A stretch of 34,554 nt of DNA from Oscillospiraceae bacterium (lineage in GTDB: Bacteria; Bacillota; Clostridia; Oscillospirales; Oscillospiraceae). Location: the NCBI GenBank assembly GCA_021202795.1, contig JAJQCH010000013.1, positions 1 through 34,554 on the forward strand, given 5' to 3'. Positions 289-33,089 of the stretch are shown in pieces (positions within the stretch are counted from its first letter, which is position 1; each line of letters opens with the position of its first letter). The notes under the pieces were generated by a model. The model saw only the letters and a list, made by a program, of their open reading frames with translations, made no database searches and had not been told where the DNA came from. The position numbers and the translations under genes were made by a program.

Positions 289-2700
289 CTATGATTCTTT
301 TTTCATATACCTGGACGCCGCTTTCAGCATCAGGCGTTTCATCCCGGTGTTTTCAAATTCGATTTCTACCAGGAAATCCCCGCCCATAGGCGTCATTTTT
401 TGGATGACGCCGGATTTAAAGGCGTTGTGGACAACGCGGTCGCCTACCTTGTAATCCATGGACAGCGTTGCCTGAGGCCTGGGCGGCGCGATGGTTTTCC
501 TTCCGGGCGTCCGCTCGGAGCTGCGCCGGGGTGTCTGCCCGAACGTCCGCTCATTTGTCTGCGGAACGTCGTCAAACTCGAAATAGCTGTTCTTCAGCGG
601 CTGATAGGGCCGGTCGATATGCTCCGGCGGTATTTCGTCCACAAAGCGGCTGACGCGGTGGGGAGCCGTCTGACCGAAAACCATGCGCTGTCGGGCGCTG
701 GTGATATAAAGCCTTCTTTTGGCGCGAGTGATGGCAACATAGGCCAGGCGTCGCTCTTCTTCCATCTGCTCCTGCTCTCCAATGGCTTGAAGGGAGGGGA
801 AGATGCCTTCCTCCATTCCGGCGATAAACACAGTGGGAAATTCCAGGCCCTTGGCGGAGTGAATGGTCATCATTGTGACGGTATTTTCGTCCAGATCTAC
901 GTTTTGCAGGTCGGTATACAGACTGACCTCGTCCAGAAAGCCTGCCAAGGAGTTGTCCTCGGTCTGCCGGACATGGGTGGCGATAAAGCTTTTCAGTTCC
1001 CGGACGTTTTCCAGCCGGTTCAGGCTGTCCTCCGTGTGGGCCTCCTCCAGCAGGCGGGCGTAGCCTGTCTTTTCCAGCAGTGCGTCGTACAAATCCTCCA
1101 GTCCGGCGGTCTGGGTCATCTGGGACAGCTCGTTCATCATCCGGGAAAAGCCTTTTAGCTTTTCCGCAGCGCGGGACAGCTCCGGGAAGCTGTCGGCGAT
1201 GGAAATAACCGTAAACAGGGGAATACCGTTTTGGGCGGCGATGGTTCTGGCACGGTCAAGAGTGGTTTGACCGATACCGCGGGGCGGCGTGTTGATGATG
1301 CGGGTCAGGCGCAGATCGTCCGCCGGGTTCAGCAGCACAAAAAAATAGGCCATGAGATCCTTGATTTCTGCCCGCTCAAAGAAAGGGTTGCCCTTCACAA
1401 TGCGGGGCCGAATGCCGCTGCGCAAAAATGCCTGCTCTAAAGCGCGGGACTGGGCGTTCAGCCGATACAGCACCGCATGATCCCGCAGGTTATCCCCCCG
1501 GTCTACGGCCTGAAGCACCTGGCGGACGATGTACTGGGCTTCGTCCTCCTCGTTTCTTGCCACATAGAGAGTGATGCGATCGCCTTCTCCCGCTTTTGTC
1601 CACAGGCGCTTTCCTTTTCGGCCTGTGTTATGGCTGACTACGCCGTTCGCGGCTTCCAGGATGTGTCCTGTGGAGCGATAATTCTGCTCAAGGCGGATCA
1701 CGCGAGTGTGATCATATTGGCTTTCAAAGGAAAGAATGTTTTCAATGGTGGCGCCGCGAAAAGCGTAGATAGACTGGTCGTCGTCTCCCACCACACATAT
1801 GTTTTTGCGTCCGCCGGCCAGGAGGGTTGCCAGCATATATTGCAGGTTGTTGGTATCCTGATACTCATCTATCAGTACATAACGGAATTTCTGCTGATAA
1901 TAATCCAGCACATCGGGAAATTCCTTCAGAAGGCGAACGGTGTTATAAATCAGATCCTCGAAATCCATGGCCCCCGCCTCCAAAAGGCGCTGGCTGTATG
2001 CCTTATACAGCTTGGCCGCCCCCTGGAGCCGAAAGTCTCCGGCCTTCTCCGCCAGGGCCATAAGCGCCTCCGGCGTCTGCATACGATCCTTGGCCTTGTC
2101 GATAACGCCCAGCACCCACTTGGGAGGGTACATTTTCTCGTCCCGATTCTGCTCCTTTATCAGTCGCTTCATCACAGCGGTGCGGTCAGCCGTGTCATAG
2201 ATGGTGAAGCTACTGGGATAACCCAGCTTGTCTCCGTCCCGCCGCAAAATACGCACACAGGCGGAGTGAAATGTCCTGGCCCAGACGCCCTCCGCCGCGT
2301 CCCCAAGCATGGAGGCAAGCCTGTCCTTCAGCTCGCCGGCGGCCTTATTAGTGAACGTGATTGCCAATATTTGCCAGGGAGCTGCCTGGTCATAGGCGGC
2401 GGCCTCCTCCGCCTGCTGCCGAAGCTCCTGCTCGCCCTCCAGATACCGACGCATGATTGCAAGCTTTTCCTCGTTGGCGTCCGGGGGCAGCTCCCGGCAG
2501 TCCGAGGCGCGGCCATATTTCATCAGATTCGTAATGCGGTTTATCAGCACGGTGGTTTTGCCGCTTCCGGCTCCGGCCAGAATCAGCAGCGGCCCCTCTG
2601 TGGCCAGCACCGCCTCCCGCTGGCGATCGTTCAGATGAGGGAAGCTGCGGGCGATAACCTCCCGGCGGGTCTCTATGTAATTTTTTGTAAAAGTATCCAT
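289..2700 (-). CDS. pcrA: ATP-dependent DNA helicase PcrA/UvrD
   Basis: This is an SF1 3'-5' helicase that unwinds DNA in repair and clears proteins from DNA. Visible motifs are the Walker A GAGSGKTT (residues 43-50), ITFTNKAA, DEYQDTN (Walker B), GDDDQSIYAFRG, QNYRST, TIHSAKGLEF and VAITRAKR. The C-terminal 50 residues (YKVGDRV...) match the Tudor-like domain by which PcrA contacts RNA polymerase, which favours PcrA over UvrD or Rep. Length is 803 aa. I start at the ATG at 2698-2700 because homology begins there; the frame stays open about 270 bases upstream but that part is not protein-like. No Shine-Dalgarno precedes this ATG, and a -10 box lies 7 bases away. About 40 extra residues (roughly 61-105) sit between motifs I and Ia, compared with Bacillus PcrA. 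Confidence 0.95.
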   Translation of the reverse strand: MDTFTKNYIETRREVIARSFPHLNDRQREAVLATEGPLLILAGAGSGKTTVLINRITNLMKYGRASDCRELPPDANEEKLAIMRRYLEGEQELRQQAEEAAAYDQAAPWQILAITFTNKAAGELKDRLASMLGDAAEGVWARTFHSACVRILRRDGDKLGYPSSFTIYDTADRTAVMKRLIKEQNRDEKMYPPKWVLGVIDKAKDRMQTPEALMALAEKAGDFRLQGAAKLYKAYSQRLLEAGAMDFEDLIYNTVRLLKEFPDVLDYYQQKFRYVLIDEYQDTNNLQYMLATLLAGGRKNICVVGDDDQSIYAFRGATIENILSFESQYDHTRVIRLEQNYRSTGHILEAANGVVSHNTGRKGKRLWTKAGEGDRITLYVARNEEDEAQYIVRQVLQAVDRGDNLRDHAVLYRLNAQSRALEQAFLRSGIRPRIVKGNPFFERAEIKDLMAYFFVLLNPADDLRLTRIINTPPRGIGQTTLDRARTIAAQNGIPLFTVISIADSFPELSRAAEKLKGFSRMMNELSQMTQTAGLEDLYDALLEKTGYARLLEEAHTEDSLNRLENVRELKSFIATHVRQTEDNSLAGFLDEVSLYTDLQNVDLDENTVTMMTIHSAKGLEFPTVFIAGMEEGIFPSLQAIGEQEQMEEERRLAYVAITRAKRRLYITSARQRMVFGQTAPHRVSRFVDEIPPEHIDRPYQPLKNSYFEFDDVPQTNERTFGQTPRRSSERTPGRKTIAPPRPQATLSMDYKVGDRVVHNAFKSGVIQKMTPMGGDFLVEIEFENTGMKRLMLKAASRYMKKES

Positions 2701-2707
2701 ACTCGCA

Positions 2708-2716
2708 AGTATACCA
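2708..2716 (-). promoter_or_regulatory. Extended -10 promoter directly before pcrA
   Basis: On the minus strand, TGG-TATACT (2716-2708) is an extended -10 element. Only seven bases separate TATACT from the pcrA ATG, which puts the start of transcription at or within a base or two of the ATG. No good -35 is present 17 bases upstream, which extended -10 promoters tolerate. Confidence 0.5.
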
Positions 2717-26841: not shown

Positions 26842-27045
26842 TTATTTATACGGGATCATGCGCTTGACAGTCGCGGCGTTGGTGCTGTCGGCATAAGCGC
26901 CCTTGCGCAGGCCGCGCTTACGCTTGGTGGTTTTGCCGTGGCCGTTGAGCAGATGGCTCTTATAGGCGTGGGCCCGCTTGACCTTGCCGTTCTTGGTCAG
27001 GGAAAAGCGTTTCTTGGATGCGCTGTGAGTTTTAAGTTTCGGCAT
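26842..27045 (-). CDS. rpmI: 50S ribosomal protein L35
   Basis: This is a small basic 50S protein. The 67-aa sequence starts MPKLKTHSASKKRFSLTKNG and contains KRAHAYKSHLLNGHGKTTKRKRGLRK in spirit of the family (basic, His-rich core), ending VKRMIPYK. Length is typical. Its ATG is inside the end of infC (14-base overlap), with AGGAG 9-10 bases upstream. Confidence 0.98.
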   Translation of the reverse strand: MPKLKTHSASKKRFSLTKNGKVKRAHAYKSHLLNGHGKTTKRKRGLRKGAYADSTNAATVKRMIPYK

Positions 27046-27613
27046 CGTTGTCGTTCTCCTTTGATTTTTCTTGCTTGGGCGTCTGCTTTTTGGCAGGCGT
27101 CTGGGCCTTGGGGGACAGGAACTCCGTCATCAGACGGCCTTCCAGCTTTGCGCCCTTGTCCACCTTGGCAATGTCCGCACACTCCCTGGCATACCGCTCC
27201 AAAAGTTGCTTGCCCAGGTCTGTATGCGCCATCTCGCGGCCTCGGAACCGCACCGTTACCTTCAGGCGGTTTCCCTCGGCCAGGAATCTCTGGCCACTGC
27301 GAAGCTTCGTCATAAAGTCGTTTTCACCAATGGAGGGAGACATCCGTATCTCCTTGACTTCAATGACGTGTTGATTTTTCTTGGCCTCTTTTTCGCGCTT
27401 GGCCTGTTCAAAGCGGTATTTTCCGTAGTCCATGATCTTGCACACCGGGGGCTTTGCCACCGGGGAAATCATGACCAGATCAAGATCCCGCTCCTGAGCA
27501 ATCTCTAATGCCTCCTTGGAGGACATAATGCCAAGCTGCTCTCCATCCTCGCCGATAAGACGAACCTGCGGCTCTCGGATATTCTCGTTCAACGGATGAG
27601 TCGTGTTCGCTAT
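27032..27613 (-). CDS. infC: Translation initiation factor IF-3, probable ATA start
   Basis: IF-3 keeps the subunits apart and rejects non-AUG starts. The N-domain (NENIREPQVRLIGEDGEQLGIM) and C-domain (IRMSPSIGENDFMTKLRSG, VTVRFRGREMAH) are clear. No ATG lies near the expected start: the first in frame (27685) is 24 codons upstream, inside the terminator-forming leader. GGAGGTG lies 8 bases before an ATA at 27613-27611, which gives 193 aa and the family's usual N-terminal length. Non-AUG starts (AUU in E. coli and Bacillus) are the known basis of IF-3 autocontrol, so ATA fits. A CTG two codons upstream is too close to the Shine-Dalgarno. The C-terminus has an extra Lys/Gln/Glu-rich tail of about 25 residues. 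Confidence 0.93.
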   Translation of the reverse strand: MANTTHPLNENIREPQVRLIGEDGEQLGIMSSKEALEIAQERDLDLVMISPVAKPPVCKIMDYGKYRFEQAKREKEAKKNQHVIEVKEIRMSPSIGENDFMTKLRSGQRFLAEGNRLKVTVRFRGREMAHTDLGKQLLERYARECADIAKVDKGAKLEGRLMTEFLSPKAQTPAKKQTPKQEKSKENDNDAET

Positions 27614-27797: not shown

Positions 27798-27826
27798 ATT
27801 TTAACAGGATACCCCCTATTTGTCAA
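27798..27826 (-). promoter_or_regulatory. Promoter of infC-rpmI-rplT
   Basis: On the minus strand, TTGACA (27826-27821), 17 bases, then TAAAAT (27803-27798) match consensus at 11 of 12 positions. It starts the leader described at 27614-27791. Confidence 0.75.
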
Positions 27827-27860
27827 GACTATTTTTTCAAAAAATGGGTATGCTCCTGCT

Positions 27861-28247
27861 ATGATGGGATTAGAGCTTTTGACTGCCCTGGCTGTGGGCG
27901 GCGCAATATATGGCGTCATTGAGATGCTTTGGCGGGGACACACCCACTGGTCTATGATTCTGACCGGCGGGGTGTGCTTCGCATTTATGTATCTGGTGGC
28001 AGTCCAGCCGAACCTGGCCCGTCCGATTCGGTATGTCTGGTGTGCGGTTCTGGTGACAGCGGTGGAATTTGTCTCCGGCGGGGTGTTTAACAGGCTCTTG
28101 GGCTGGCACATATGGGACTATTCCCATATGCGGCTGAATCTTTATGGGCAGGTGTGCTTGCGCTATAGTCTGTATTGGTTTTTATTAAGCGTTCCCGGCT
28201 GCGCCCTGGCCAGACTCATTCGCAGCAGTTTTTTTCTCAGCGGATGA
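27861..28247 (+). CDS. Small membrane protein, CmpB-type putative ABC transporter permease family
   Basis: The 128-aa hydrophobic protein has about four membrane segments (ELLTALAVGGAIYGVIEM, MILTGGVCFAFMYLVAV, YVWCAVLVTAVEFVSGGVF and YSLYWFLLSVPGCALARL). The segment EFVSGGVFNRLLGWHIWDYS and QVCLRYSLYWFLLS resembles a family of clostridial membrane proteins annotated as putative ABC transporter permeases (CmpB-like), of unproved function. The start is ATG at 27861 (or 27864); no Shine-Dalgarno is visible, and a TATGCT sequence lies 6 bases upstream. Its last 63 bases overlap the end of deoC on the other strand. Divergent from infC, it is a single gene. Confidence 0.7.
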   Translation: MMGLELLTALAVGGAIYGVIEMLWRGHTHWSMILTGGVCFAFMYLVAVQPNLARPIRYVWCAVLVTAVEFVSGGVFNRLLGWHIWDYSHMRLNLYGQVCLRYSLYWFLLSVPGCALARLIRSSFFLSG

Positions 28248-29047: not shown

Positions 29048-29653
29048 ATGGAGGAGATTTACATCACCAACCGGGCGGAGCTGTGCGGCAGGGCGCTGGC
29101 TGACCCGGAATATTCTCACGAGAGCCGGGGTATACGGTTTTTCACCTTTCCCCTGGAGATACGCCGTCTCAGCGGCACGGCGGACACACTGAACATTGTG
29201 GTGCGGCAGTCCATGCTCCAGGAAAGAGCGCTGGTTCAGGCTGAACGGCTGCATATTACAGGGGAGCTGCGTTCCTTCAACAACAAAAGCGGCTTGGGCA
29301 ATCGGCTGGTGCTGACCATTCTGGCCAGGGATATAGAGCCAGCTGACGGAGAGGATGAAAACCGCATTTTCCTTCTGGGAACGGTCTGCAAGACGCCTAC
29401 CCTGCGGGTAACGCCCCTGGGTCGGGAAATATGCGATGTGATTCTGGCGGTAGGGAGGAGGTATCACCGCAGTGATTACATTCCCGTCATCGCCTGGGGG
29501 CAGCAGGCGCAGCAGACGGCTCTGGCTGCCGTAGGAACGCGCCTTTCTGTCCAGGGGCGGCTGCAAAGCCGGCCCTATACCAAGGTCATCGACGGCCAAA
29601 GCTGCCAGCGCACGGCCTACGAGGTTTCCGCCGCGGATATTTTTCCCGTGTAA
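29048..29653 (+). CDS. SSB-like protein with two tandem OB folds
   Basis: The 201-aa protein contains two related segments: about 6-95 (NRAELCGRALADPEYSHESRG ... LHITGELRSFNNKSG) and about 103-201 (NRIFLLGTVCKTPTLRVTPLGREIC ... LSVQGRLQSRPY). Each follows the SSB/PriB oligonucleotide-binding fold pattern (N-x-x-x-L-x-G, FxL, GxL). It resembles clostridial proteins labelled single-stranded DNA-binding. Unlike the main SSB it has no glycine-rich linker or acidic DDDIPF-type tail; it ends ADIFPV. It may bind single-stranded DNA or RNA as a monomer with two sites; the function is not established. GAGGTG precedes the ATG by 5 bases. Confidence 0.75.
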   Translation: MEEIYITNRAELCGRALADPEYSHESRGIRFFTFPLEIRRLSGTADTLNIVVRQSMLQERALVQAERLHITGELRSFNNKSGLGNRLVLTILARDIEPADGEDENRIFLLGTVCKTPTLRVTPLGREICDVILAVGRRYHRSDYIPVIAWGQQAQQTALAAVGTRLSVQGRLQSRPYTKVIDGQSCQRTAYEVSAADIFPV

Positions 29654-29719
29654 TCGGTGACTTCAGCCGAATATGCCGAACATTTTAATATTACCCCAAC
29701 TTTCTTTTCCTGTCAATTA

Positions 29720-29748
29720 TTGAAAAACACGCCGCAATGTATTATTAT
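29720..29748 (+). promoter_or_regulatory. Promoter of glgB-glgA, placed for a leaderless start
   Basis: TTGAAA (29720-29725), 17 bases, then TATTAT (29743-29748) match consensus at 10 of 12 positions. The glgB ATG at 29755 lies six bases past the -10 box, just where transcription should begin. There is no Shine-Dalgarno before this ATG or before the in-frame ATG at 29737. Confidence 0.6.
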
Positions 29749-29754
29749 ATAGAC

Positions 29755-31611
29755 ATGAGTGTTTTAAATGACAATTCCTATAGAGCCTATGAATACTTAG
29801 GCTGTCATCCGCAGGGAGATGATCGGGTATTCCGGGTGTGGGCGCCGAACGCCAAAGCCGTCTCCGTCGTCGGGGATTTCAACGGCTGGGATAACGCCGC
29901 CGCGCCCATGGTCAGGGACATGGACGGCATATGGTGCGCCGTCCTCTCCGGCGTGCAGAACGGCGATATATATAAATATGCCGTCCTTGGCGCGGACGGA
30001 AAAACCGTTCTGAAGGCCGACCCCTTTGCCTTCCATGCAGAGACCGGCCCGGCCACCGGGTCAAAGGTCTGGGATCTATCGCTTTTCCCATGGGACGACC
30101 GAGAATGGATGTCAAACCGGGAGACGGCGGACATCCGCAAGGCTCCCATGAACATCTATGAGGTGCATATTGGCTCCTGGCGGGTAGATGAAAACGAGAC
30201 CTTCCCAAACTATCAGCGTATAGCGCCCATCCTGGCAGCCTACTGCCAGATGATGGGCTATACCCATGTGGAACTCCTGCCGGTGACGGAATACCCCTAT
30301 GAGGGTAGCTGGGGCTATCAGGCCACGGGCTATTTTGCCCCCACCAGCCGGTATGGGACGCCCCAGGATTTTATGGCCTTTGTGGACATCCTCCACCGGG
30401 CGGGCATCGGCGTAATTATCGACTGGGTCGCCGCCCACTTTCCGCGGGACGAGCATGGCCTAGCTCATTTTGACGGGACGGCGCTGTATGAATACGCCGA
30501 CCCCCGCATGGGTGAGCATAAAGAATGGGGTACCCTGGTGTTCGACTACGCCAGCCCGGATGTATGGGGCTTTCTTATCAGCTCCGCCTTATTCTTCCTG
30601 GAGCAGTATCACATCGACGGCCTGCGGTGCGACGCCGTCAGCTCCATGTTGTATCTGGATTATGGCCGCCAGGATGGTCAGTGGGTAGCCAACCGGGACG
30701 GCGGCAACATTAACTACGACGTAGTGTCCTTCTGGCAGGAGCTGAACAAAACCGTGGCAAATCGCTTCCCTGGTGCGTTCACTGTGGCGGAGGAGTCAAC
30801 TGCATTTCCAAAGGTTACTGCATTGCCGGAATATGGCGGTCTGGGCTTTACCTTCAAGTGGGACATGGGATTTATGCACGACACCCTGGACTACTTCCAG
30901 ATGGATCCTCTGTTCCGCAGTCATCACCATGGGAAGCTGACCTTCTCCATGATGTATGCCTATTCGGAGTATTACATATTGGCCTTCTCCCACGACGAGG
31001 TCGTTCACGGGAAAAAGTCCATGCTGGACAAGATGTATGGCACCTATGAGGAGAAATTTGCCACCCTCCGGGCTTTATATGGCTATCAGTTTGCCCATCC
31101 GGGGAAAAAGCTGACCTTCATGGGCGGAGAGTTTGGGCAATTTATCGAGTGGAATTACAAGCAGCAGCTTGACTGGCTTCTGCTGAATTATCCCGCCCAC
31201 AAAAAGCTTTTGGATTATTGCGCCGCCTTGGGACAGCTCTATCTCTCCCAGCCCGCCCTGTGGCAGATCGAGGACAGTTGGGAGGGCTTTACTTGGCTGA
31301 ACCCGGACGATGCGGAGCGCAGCTCCATCGCTATCATGCGTTGGCCCAAAAAGGACGGCCTGCCGGTGGTGTGCGTGTGCAACTTCACCCCAGTGGCATA
31401 CGACGGATTCCTGATCGGTCTGCCCGCCCCCGGACGGCTGAAACCGCTTCTTAACAGCAATGAGAAGCGCTTTGGCGGAAACGGCACAAAAGGCAGAATT
31501 ATCCGTTCCAAAAAGGGCAGCTTCCGGGAATTTAAAAACGTTGCCAGCGTTCCGCTTCCACCACTGTCCGCTCTGTATTTCCAGTTTGAGGAGGTTAAGA
31601 AAAAGCCATGA
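29755..31611 (+). CDS. glgB: 1,4-alpha-glucan branching enzyme
   Basis: GlgB makes alpha-1,6 branches in glycogen. The protein is 618 aa from the ATG at 29755. An N-terminal carbohydrate-binding (CBM48-like) domain (VFRVWAPNAKAVSVVGDFNGW) precedes a GH13 barrel with NIYEVHIGSW, the nucleophile in LRCDAVSS (D293), the acid/base in VAEEST (E346) and the third aspartate in FSHDEVVHGK (D414), then a beta-rich C-terminal domain. It lacks the long N-terminal module of the E. coli enzyme, as is common in Firmicutes. An in-frame ATG at 29737 is inside the promoter spacer and unlikely. glgA follows with a 4-base ATGA overlap. Confidence 0.95.
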   Translation: MSVLNDNSYRAYEYLGCHPQGDDRVFRVWAPNAKAVSVVGDFNGWDNAAAPMVRDMDGIWCAVLSGVQNGDIYKYAVLGADGKTVLKADPFAFHAETGPATGSKVWDLSLFPWDDREWMSNRETADIRKAPMNIYEVHIGSWRVDENETFPNYQRIAPILAAYCQMMGYTHVELLPVTEYPYEGSWGYQATGYFAPTSRYGTPQDFMAFVDILHRAGIGVIIDWVAAHFPRDEHGLAHFDGTALYEYADPRMGEHKEWGTLVFDYASPDVWGFLISSALFFLEQYHIDGLRCDAVSSMLYLDYGRQDGQWVANRDGGNINYDVVSFWQELNKTVANRFPGAFTVAEESTAFPKVTALPEYGGLGFTFKWDMGFMHDTLDYFQMDPLFRSHHHGKLTFSMMYAYSEYYILAFSHDEVVHGKKSMLDKMYGTYEEKFATLRALYGYQFAHPGKKLTFMGGEFGQFIEWNYKQQLDWLLLNYPAHKKLLDYCAALGQLYLSQPALWQIEDSWEGFTWLNPDDAERSSIAIMRWPKKDGLPVVCVCNFTPVAYDGFLIGLPAPGRLKPLLNSNEKRFGGNGTKGRIIRSKKGSFREFKNVASVPLPPLSALYFQFEEVKKKP

Positions 31612-33089
31612 CCGTTACCGCTATGAAGGAGCAAATCGCCGCCATGACCGCCGAAAAGGGGCTGGATCATCCCCCAAGAATTTTATTTGCCGCCGCAGAG
31701 TGCAGCCCCCTGGCCAAAACCGGCGGGCTGGCGGATGTGGTCGGCACTCTGCCGAAATACCTGAAAAAGCTGGGCTTTGACGCACGGGTTATAATCCCCT
31801 ATCATCGGGTCATCAAGGAAAAATACCGCGACCGGGTGCAGTATCTTTTCAGCTTTGACGTACATATGGGCTGGCGCACAAAGTTTGTGGGCGTGAACCG
31901 ACTGATGCTGGGGAAGGTCTGCGTGTGGCTCATCGAAAACGAGGAGTATTTTGGAGACAGCATTTACCTTCCTGATCGAGAGGGAGAGCAGTATGCCTTT
32001 TTCACCCGCGCTGTGCTGGAAGCGCTGCCTCAGCTTGATTTCATCCCTGACATTATCCACTGCAACGACTGGCACACAGGAATGCTTCCCTTCCTGCTGA
32101 AAACGCAGTATTATAATTCTCCCCTGGCGGGAACAAAGACCCTTCTTACCATCCACAATATCGCCTATCAGGGTCTGTGCAAGTTCGACTTTGTTCAGGA
32201 CTTTCTCTCCGTGCCGGAGGGCGGCTTCGGTCTGATGGAGCGGTTTGGTATGGCGGATTTTCTGAAGGCCGGCTGCATTATGGCCGACCGTGTGAACACC
32301 GTCAGCCCGTCCTATGCTCGCGAGATCTGCACCCCGGAGTATGGCGAGGGGCTGGACGGCGTGCTGGCCTTCCGAGAGGATGTGTCCGGCATTGTCAACG
32401 GCATTGACAAATCTGTTTGGAATCCCGGCAAGGACAGTAATCTGCCCGTTCCCTTTACCCGCTCCAAAATGGTTGGAAAAATCCAGTGCAAGACCGCCCT
32501 GCTGGAGGAGCTGGGCCTGGAAATTATCCCGACCCGGCCTCTGATCGGCATGGTAACGCGCCTGGCGGAGCAGAAGGGCATAGAGCTTGTTATGGAGGCC
32601 ATGGACAAGCTGCTGTGGGAAAACGATTTTGCCTTTGTGGTGCTTGGCAACGGCGCGTCCAAATATGAAAATTGGCTTCAGGGCCTGGAGGCCCGCCACC
32701 CCGGCCGGGCCTGCGCCTGGATCGGCTTTGCCGATGGTCTTAGCCACCGCATTTACGCCGGGTGCGACTTCTTCCTGATGCCCTCCCGCTTTGAGCCGTG
32801 CGGCATTAGCCAGATGATTTCCATGGCCTACGGCACGCTCCCCATCGTCCGGGAGACCGGCGGTCTGCGGGATACCGTTCAGCCCTACAACCAATACACC
32901 GGCGAGGGTAACGGCTTCTCCTTCGCCCGTATGGACGCCGGGGATATGTCCGATGCAATTTTGCGGGCTTTATCCGTATACAAAGATAAGGAGACCATGG
33001 AAAGCCTTATTCGTCAGGCCATGGAGGTGGATAATAGCTGCAACAAATGGGGCTATAATTACGGCGAGCTGTATTTAAGTATGCTTTAA
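31608..33089 (+). CDS. glgA: Glycogen synthase (ADP-glucose type)
   Basis: GlgA extends alpha-1,4 glucan from ADP-glucose. The 493-aa GT5 enzyme has AAECSPLAKTGGLADVVGTL with the KTGGL nucleotide-sugar motif, HCNDWHTGMLPF, LLTIHNIAYQG, and the C-terminal GT-B segment PSRFEPCGISQMISMAYG followed by RETGGL. The first 15-20 residues are longer than usual; ATG at 31608 overlaps the glgB stop, while an in-frame ATG at 31623 is an alternative. glgC, glgD and glgP are not in the window, so ADP-glucose supply is encoded elsewhere. No strong terminator is seen before the convergent MATE gene (33090-33165). Confidence 0.96.
   Translation: MTVTAMKEQIAAMTAEKGLDHPPRILFAAAECSPLAKTGGLADVVGTLPKYLKKLGFDARVIIPYHRVIKEKYRDRVQYLFSFDVHMGWRTKFVGVNRLMLGKVCVWLIENEEYFGDSIYLPDREGEQYAFFTRAVLEALPQLDFIPDIIHCNDWHTGMLPFLLKTQYYNSPLAGTKTLLTIHNIAYQGLCKFDFVQDFLSVPEGGFGLMERFGMADFLKAGCIMADRVNTVSPSYAREICTPEYGEGLDGVLAFREDVSGIVNGIDKSVWNPGKDSNLPVPFTRSKMVGKIQCKTALLEELGLEIIPTRPLIGMVTRLAEQKGIELVMEAMDKLLWENDFAFVVLGNGASKYENWLQGLEARHPGRACAWIGFADGLSHRIYAGCDFFLMPSRFEPCGISQMISMAYGTLPIVRETGGLRDTVQPYNQYTGEGNGFSFARMDAGDMSDAILRALSVYKDKETMESLIRQAMEVDNSCNKWGYNYGELYLSML

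Follow-up and report, generated by a model that had tools for sequence, protein, structure and literature searches.

A sigma-A-type promoter placed directly against the glgB start codon is likely to produce a leaderless glgB-glgA mRNA in an uncultured gut Oscillospiraceae bacterium, and glgB belongs to the small leaderless-type gene set of its genus. The window, i.e., the whole stretch of DNA analyzed here (34,554 nucleotides; contig JAJQCH010000013.1, assembly GCA_021202795.1), carries the operon on its plus strand, and the glgB message, as read from its sequence, very probably starts at its own start codon. We infer the transcript start, the sigma factor, the co-transcription of glgA and the translation of the leaderless end. 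Judged by conservation, a few genes (pcrA, folC, a YpsA-like gene and glgB) are probably leaderless in a genome that mainly uses Shine-Dalgarno (SD) sequences.

The glgB promoter and start codon

The glgB gene (29755-31611, plus strand) encodes a 1,4-alpha-glucan branching enzyme that scores above two curated cut-offs (NF008967, 836 bits against 577; NF003811, 832 against 741). It is followed by glgA (31608-33089, plus strand), encoding glycogen synthase (TIGR02095, 512 bits against a cut-off of 328), whose ATG overlaps the glgB stop codon and is preceded by a GGAGG that lies inside glgB. Upstream, sequence reading, a promoter scan and comparison within the genus all identify a -35 element, TTGAAA (29720-29725, plus strand), separated by a 17-nt spacer from the -10 element TATTAT (29743-29748, plus strand), which ends 6 nt before the glgB ATG (29755-29757). 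The scan lists this site with 10 of 12 consensus matches; its -10 element is not extended, unlike those of pcrA, folC and the YpsA-like gene. ATAGAC joins the hexamer to the ATG, whose A falls on the seventh base past the hexamer, a normal position for +1.

With TTGAAA-17-TATTAT directly against the glgB ATG, RNA polymerase should start at, or no more than two bases from, the A at 29755; the promoter spacing would thus place +1 at 29755 and give a 5' leader of 0-2 nt. A leaderless glgB-glgA mRNA would result, and ribosomes would initiate on its leaderless end without an SD. This is the arrangement proposed in the first-pass annotation, and the promoter is positioned for +1 at the glgB ATG just as it described. 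Its further statement that neither this ATG nor the in-frame ATG at 29737 has an SD is borne out on the sequence, the score before 29755 being 0.

Comparison within the genus supports this reading. Forty-four glgB loci of the same genus reduce to 27 distinct upstream regions, window included; an earlier count of 25 loci, two of them identical upstream (five leaderless-type and 20 SD-led in all), was made without L028, L031 and L037. TTGAAA with a 17-nt spacer is present in 27/27 regions, followed by TATGAT in 21, TATTAT in five and TATAAT in one. In the five regions with TATTAT, 6 nt separate the hexamer from the ATG and the SD score is 0, whereas the other 22 have the -10 element 30-57 nt before the start codon and an SD of at least five bases; no region has an intermediate distance. 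The leaderless type is therefore a minority form, represented by the window, L092, L132, L093/L023 and L101/L029; L092, L093 and L132 come from Oscillospiraceae metagenome-assembled genomes with 92-96% protein identity. Among the five, the 6 nt between hexamer and ATG vary while the hexamer and the distance are constant. The glgB start codon at 29755 aligns with that of the SD-led relatives, and similar residues follow it in both groups. On this evidence the leaderless reading of glgB is well supported.

The in-frame ATG at 29737-29739 (plus strand) offers a different place to begin. Were glgB translated from it, with a promoter further upstream, TATTAT would be no more than Tyr codons or part of them; this ATG is in frame and open, is kept in four of the five leaderless-type loci, and was picked by a start chooser that weighs coding score. 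It is, however, CTG in L093/L023 as well as lacking an SD, and the codons that separate it from 29755 vary from locus to locus within the five while TATTAT stays unchanged, from which 29755 is most likely the start, with the promoter abutting it. The same -35/-10 pair also recurs in the 22 SD-led relatives, where coding at the glgB start cannot explain it. Translation from 29737 is accordingly quite improbable, and this ATG probably belongs to the promoter spacer. In several glgB loci outside the genus, the first listed in-frame start adds some 20-25 residues ahead of the aligned region, and the GlgB N-terminus appears to be shorter in the window's genus.

Transcription might also reach glgB mainly by read-through, from the ssb-like gene (29048-29653), which precedes glgB by 101 nt in the same orientation, with no plus-strand terminator-like site listed by the scan between the two, or from some other upstream promoter, to give a leadered but SD-less mRNA. 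We regard this as unlikely: read-through does not account for a promoter that is conserved and stays at one distance from the ATG in five genomes. It is scarcely credible that the hexamer beside the ATG is an AT-rich string there by chance, with glgB a weakly expressed SD-less gene. Dinucleotide shuffling of the 101-nt intergenic stretch does yield a site as good (at least 10/12) somewhere in 736 of 20,000 shuffles, so that spotting one by eye is in itself no rare event, and the genome shows no clear overall excess of such sites; but only 35 shuffles have one at 5-8 nt and 12 at exactly the glgB distance, and the -35/-10 pair with its 17-nt spacer is found in every one of the 27 genus regions. 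It is this conservation in relatives that marks the glgB site as more than chance. Initiation at the promoter-abutted ATG 29755 is the reading that we adopt below.

Three other features of the region deserve mention. The sequence TGTCAATTATTGAAAAA (29711-29727) is an imperfect inverted repeat lying over the glgB -35 element, and recurs with few changes in glgB promoters of the genus. It is possibly an operator; an operator or regulon was not taken further as an explanation, since the window's genome contains a single copy of the repeat when up to two mismatches are allowed. A promoter-like TTGACA-17-TAATAT on the minus strand (29687-29716) overlaps the glgB upstream region and faces the opposite direction. 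A search for structured RNA gave no Rfam match in the window at gathering scores.

The extent of the leaderless-type set

The first-pass annotation also named pcrA as leaderless, and this proposal receives strong support. The pcrA-like helicase gene (289-2700, minus strand; TIGR01073, 826 bits, below the cut-off of 911) is preceded by the extended -10 element TGGTATACT (2708-2716, minus strand), whose TATACT (2713-2708) ends 7 nt before the ATG at 2700. Across 30 genus loci the extended -10 lies 6-7 nt from the start in 26 and 9 nt in three, a single locus (L241) having no match, and an SD precedes pcrA in none of the 30. The upstream sequences of these loci diverge widely except for TGnTATAmT directly before the ATG. 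Outside the genus, where 30 loci were returned from 79 genomes at the level of the order, an SD-like match accompanies some listed in-frame start in 23/30, and a -10 element lies near a listed start in two, at an SD-less ATG (L268) and at an internal GTG (L285).

The pattern TGNTATAMT-N5-8-ATG occurs 14 times in the window's genome, compared with once when read backwards and 21 times with N25-28. Four of the 14 sites start recognizable genes: pcrA, folC, the YpsA-like gene (PF06908) and a molybdopterin oxidoreductase-like gene. For folC (28 of 30 loci used), the extended -10 is found at 6-7 nt in 24/28 genus loci; the exceptions, in G016, G019, G022 and G023, are divergent folC genes (44-47% identity) with an SD-like match. 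For the YpsA-like gene, 24 of 30 loci were retained after setting aside six distant paralogs, and L369, with no start within range, was then dropped; the extended -10 is at 6-7 nt in 21 of the remaining 23, and none has an SD. By their sequence, pcrA, folC and the YpsA-like gene are thus the more widely conserved leaderless-type members of the set, with the putative extended -10 TGnYATAmT.

Some individual sites resemble these. The molybdopterin oxidoreductase-like gene (L254; G000:C161:11479-11497, minus strand) carries TGATATAAT, which is separated from its ATG by 7 nt, and similar strings occur in G043, G042, G004 and G005, possibly at orthologs. A further leaderless candidate is an rlmD-like gene (L193:4382, minus strand), which begins with ATG-ATG and carries TAAAAT 7 nt upstream.

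The CmpB-like gene (PF06541), tentatively listed with pcrA and glgB in the first-pass annotation, is not supported as a further member. Its TATGCT (27849-27854, plus strand) lies 6 nt before the ATG at 27861 but is kept in only four of the 16 loci used (out of 30), namely the window, G043, G004 and G042, and an SD-like match is present in 7/16; some loose hexamer at 5-8 nt can be found in 9/16. Ahead of the CmpB-like gene, members of the genus keep a block (27798-27826 in the window) that carries a minus-strand TTGACA-17-TAAAAT, its -10 element preceded by TG, directed toward a minus-strand gene (27032-27592) that we take, from its protein sequence, to be infC. By eye, the block reads better as a promoter toward that gene.

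How far the arrangement extends was assessed in the window's genome (G000; 2.25 Mb, 195 contigs, 97% complete) in a sample of 1.03 of the 2.25 Mb, comprising 101 stretches with the window included and the folC contig outside. Coding score, start codon and SD together decided the starts of the 721 predicted genes, of which 565 show an SD match four or more bases long. Errors in the starts weaken these tests: glgB was put at 29737, and the YpsA-like start 30 codons inside the gene. A first scan of every in-frame ATG gave no excess of -10 boxes near starts. Requiring a promoter score of 8 or more at 5-8 nt leaves 14 genes against a mean of 19.4 (13 against 8.8 among SD-less genes), and a score of 9 or more leaves seven against 9.9 (SD-less, seven against 3.8). 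The 118 SD-less genes with upstream room have a strong -10 element at 5-9 nt in five cases (mean of the other position windows 2.6, P 0.12) and, by the full promoter score, a promoter-like pair in seven (mean 2.7, P 0.02); the same test on 325 SD-led genes finds zero and four, respectively. An extended -10 lies near the start of one of the 118 SD-less genes, and at SD-less ATGs it is found in 5/667 in-frame and 5/789 out-of-frame cases (P 1.0). Over 31 genus genomes, an extended -10 followed by 6-7 nt and ATG occurs at 276 sites, versus 281 sites at 12-13 nt (Wilcoxon P 0.90).

With little or no excess in these tests, we favor a small conserved set over a broad leaderless class, for which neither the sampled genome nor the 31 genus genomes give clear enrichment. 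The proposal of a recurrent class of leaderless genes in this organism thus survives in part: pcrA, folC and the YpsA-like gene form a small conserved set, while the genome-wide enrichment of -10 boxes near SD-less starts that a recurrent class called for did not clearly appear.

Direction of change at glgB

The glgB tree groups the 20 SD-led loci (97/95) and unites the window with three others in a four-locus group (100/99), leaving L101 unplaced. On the pcrA tree, whose outgroups are long-branched, the genome of L101 (G023) falls outside a group (99/99) that joins the window's clade to the SD-led clade. Counted by hand on the pcrA tree, a single change suffices if the glgB ancestor was leaderless, and two are required if it was SD-led. 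The leaderless state, the more parsimonious of the two, may have been ancestral, though the evidence is weak; transfer of glgB between lineages may also account for the pattern. A first reading, loss of the leader in the window's lineage, was given up: on the pcrA tree, it is no less likely that the other clade gained a leader. We offer it as a possibility, somewhat short of even, that a single promoter which either abuts the ATG or has a 30-57 nt leader with an SD passed from the leaderless to the SD-led form of glgB through leader gain, with pcrA, folC and the YpsA-like gene staying leaderless in most of the genus.

Relation to known leaderless genes

The arrangement at glgB is known but uncommon, and glgB is an ordinary kind of leaderless gene. 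Excerpts of a bacterial survey (Zheng et al., 2011; PMC3160421) describe leaderless genes with TANNNT about 12 bp before the start and report them in 56 of 209 Firmicutes genomes, mainly Lactobacillales and Mycoplasma. The genes described here resemble them in lacking an SD and in having a -10 element whose first T lies about 12 bp upstream of the start codon; unlike the surveyed genomes, as far as the excerpts describe them, the Oscillospiraceae genus considered here shows the arrangement at a few conserved genes and gives no signal across the genome. According to excerpts of a study of Deinococcus-Thermus, -10 elements adjacent to ORFs are common in that phylum and concern about one-third of D. 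radiodurans genes, and its discussion cites work in which 70S ribosomes start on leaderless mRNA (PMC12340547). The architecture and the proposed mechanism are the same here, yet only a handful of genes is involved and a -35 element is also present at glgB.

Clostridia offer a closer comparison. Excerpts of studies with mapped transcripts put leaderless ones at about 2-3% (PMC9045289) and 4% (PMC5171806), and the small set described here is in keeping with this 2-4%. Leaderless starts are rare in both cases; set against those clostridia, as excerpted, the genes named here are distinguished by the absence of an SD. Among the literature surveyed, titles and abstract openings contain no description of glgB, pcrA or folC as leaderless in Oscillospiraceae. 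Gene callers can misplace leaderless starts, as the start chooser used here did for glgB and the YpsA-like gene.

The nearest comparison lies within the genus itself. The 22 SD-led glgB regions share with the window a corresponding start codon, the promoter type, the 17-nt spacer and the enzyme, and differ from it in the 30-57 nt that separate the -10 element from the ATG and in the SD found there. Two useful twists are added to a known theme: an Oscillospiraceae genus whose leaderless-type genes form a conserved set, and a single glgB promoter that either abuts the start codon or is followed by an SD-bearing leader, so that leaderless and SD-led initiation become comparable on one gene and one promoter.
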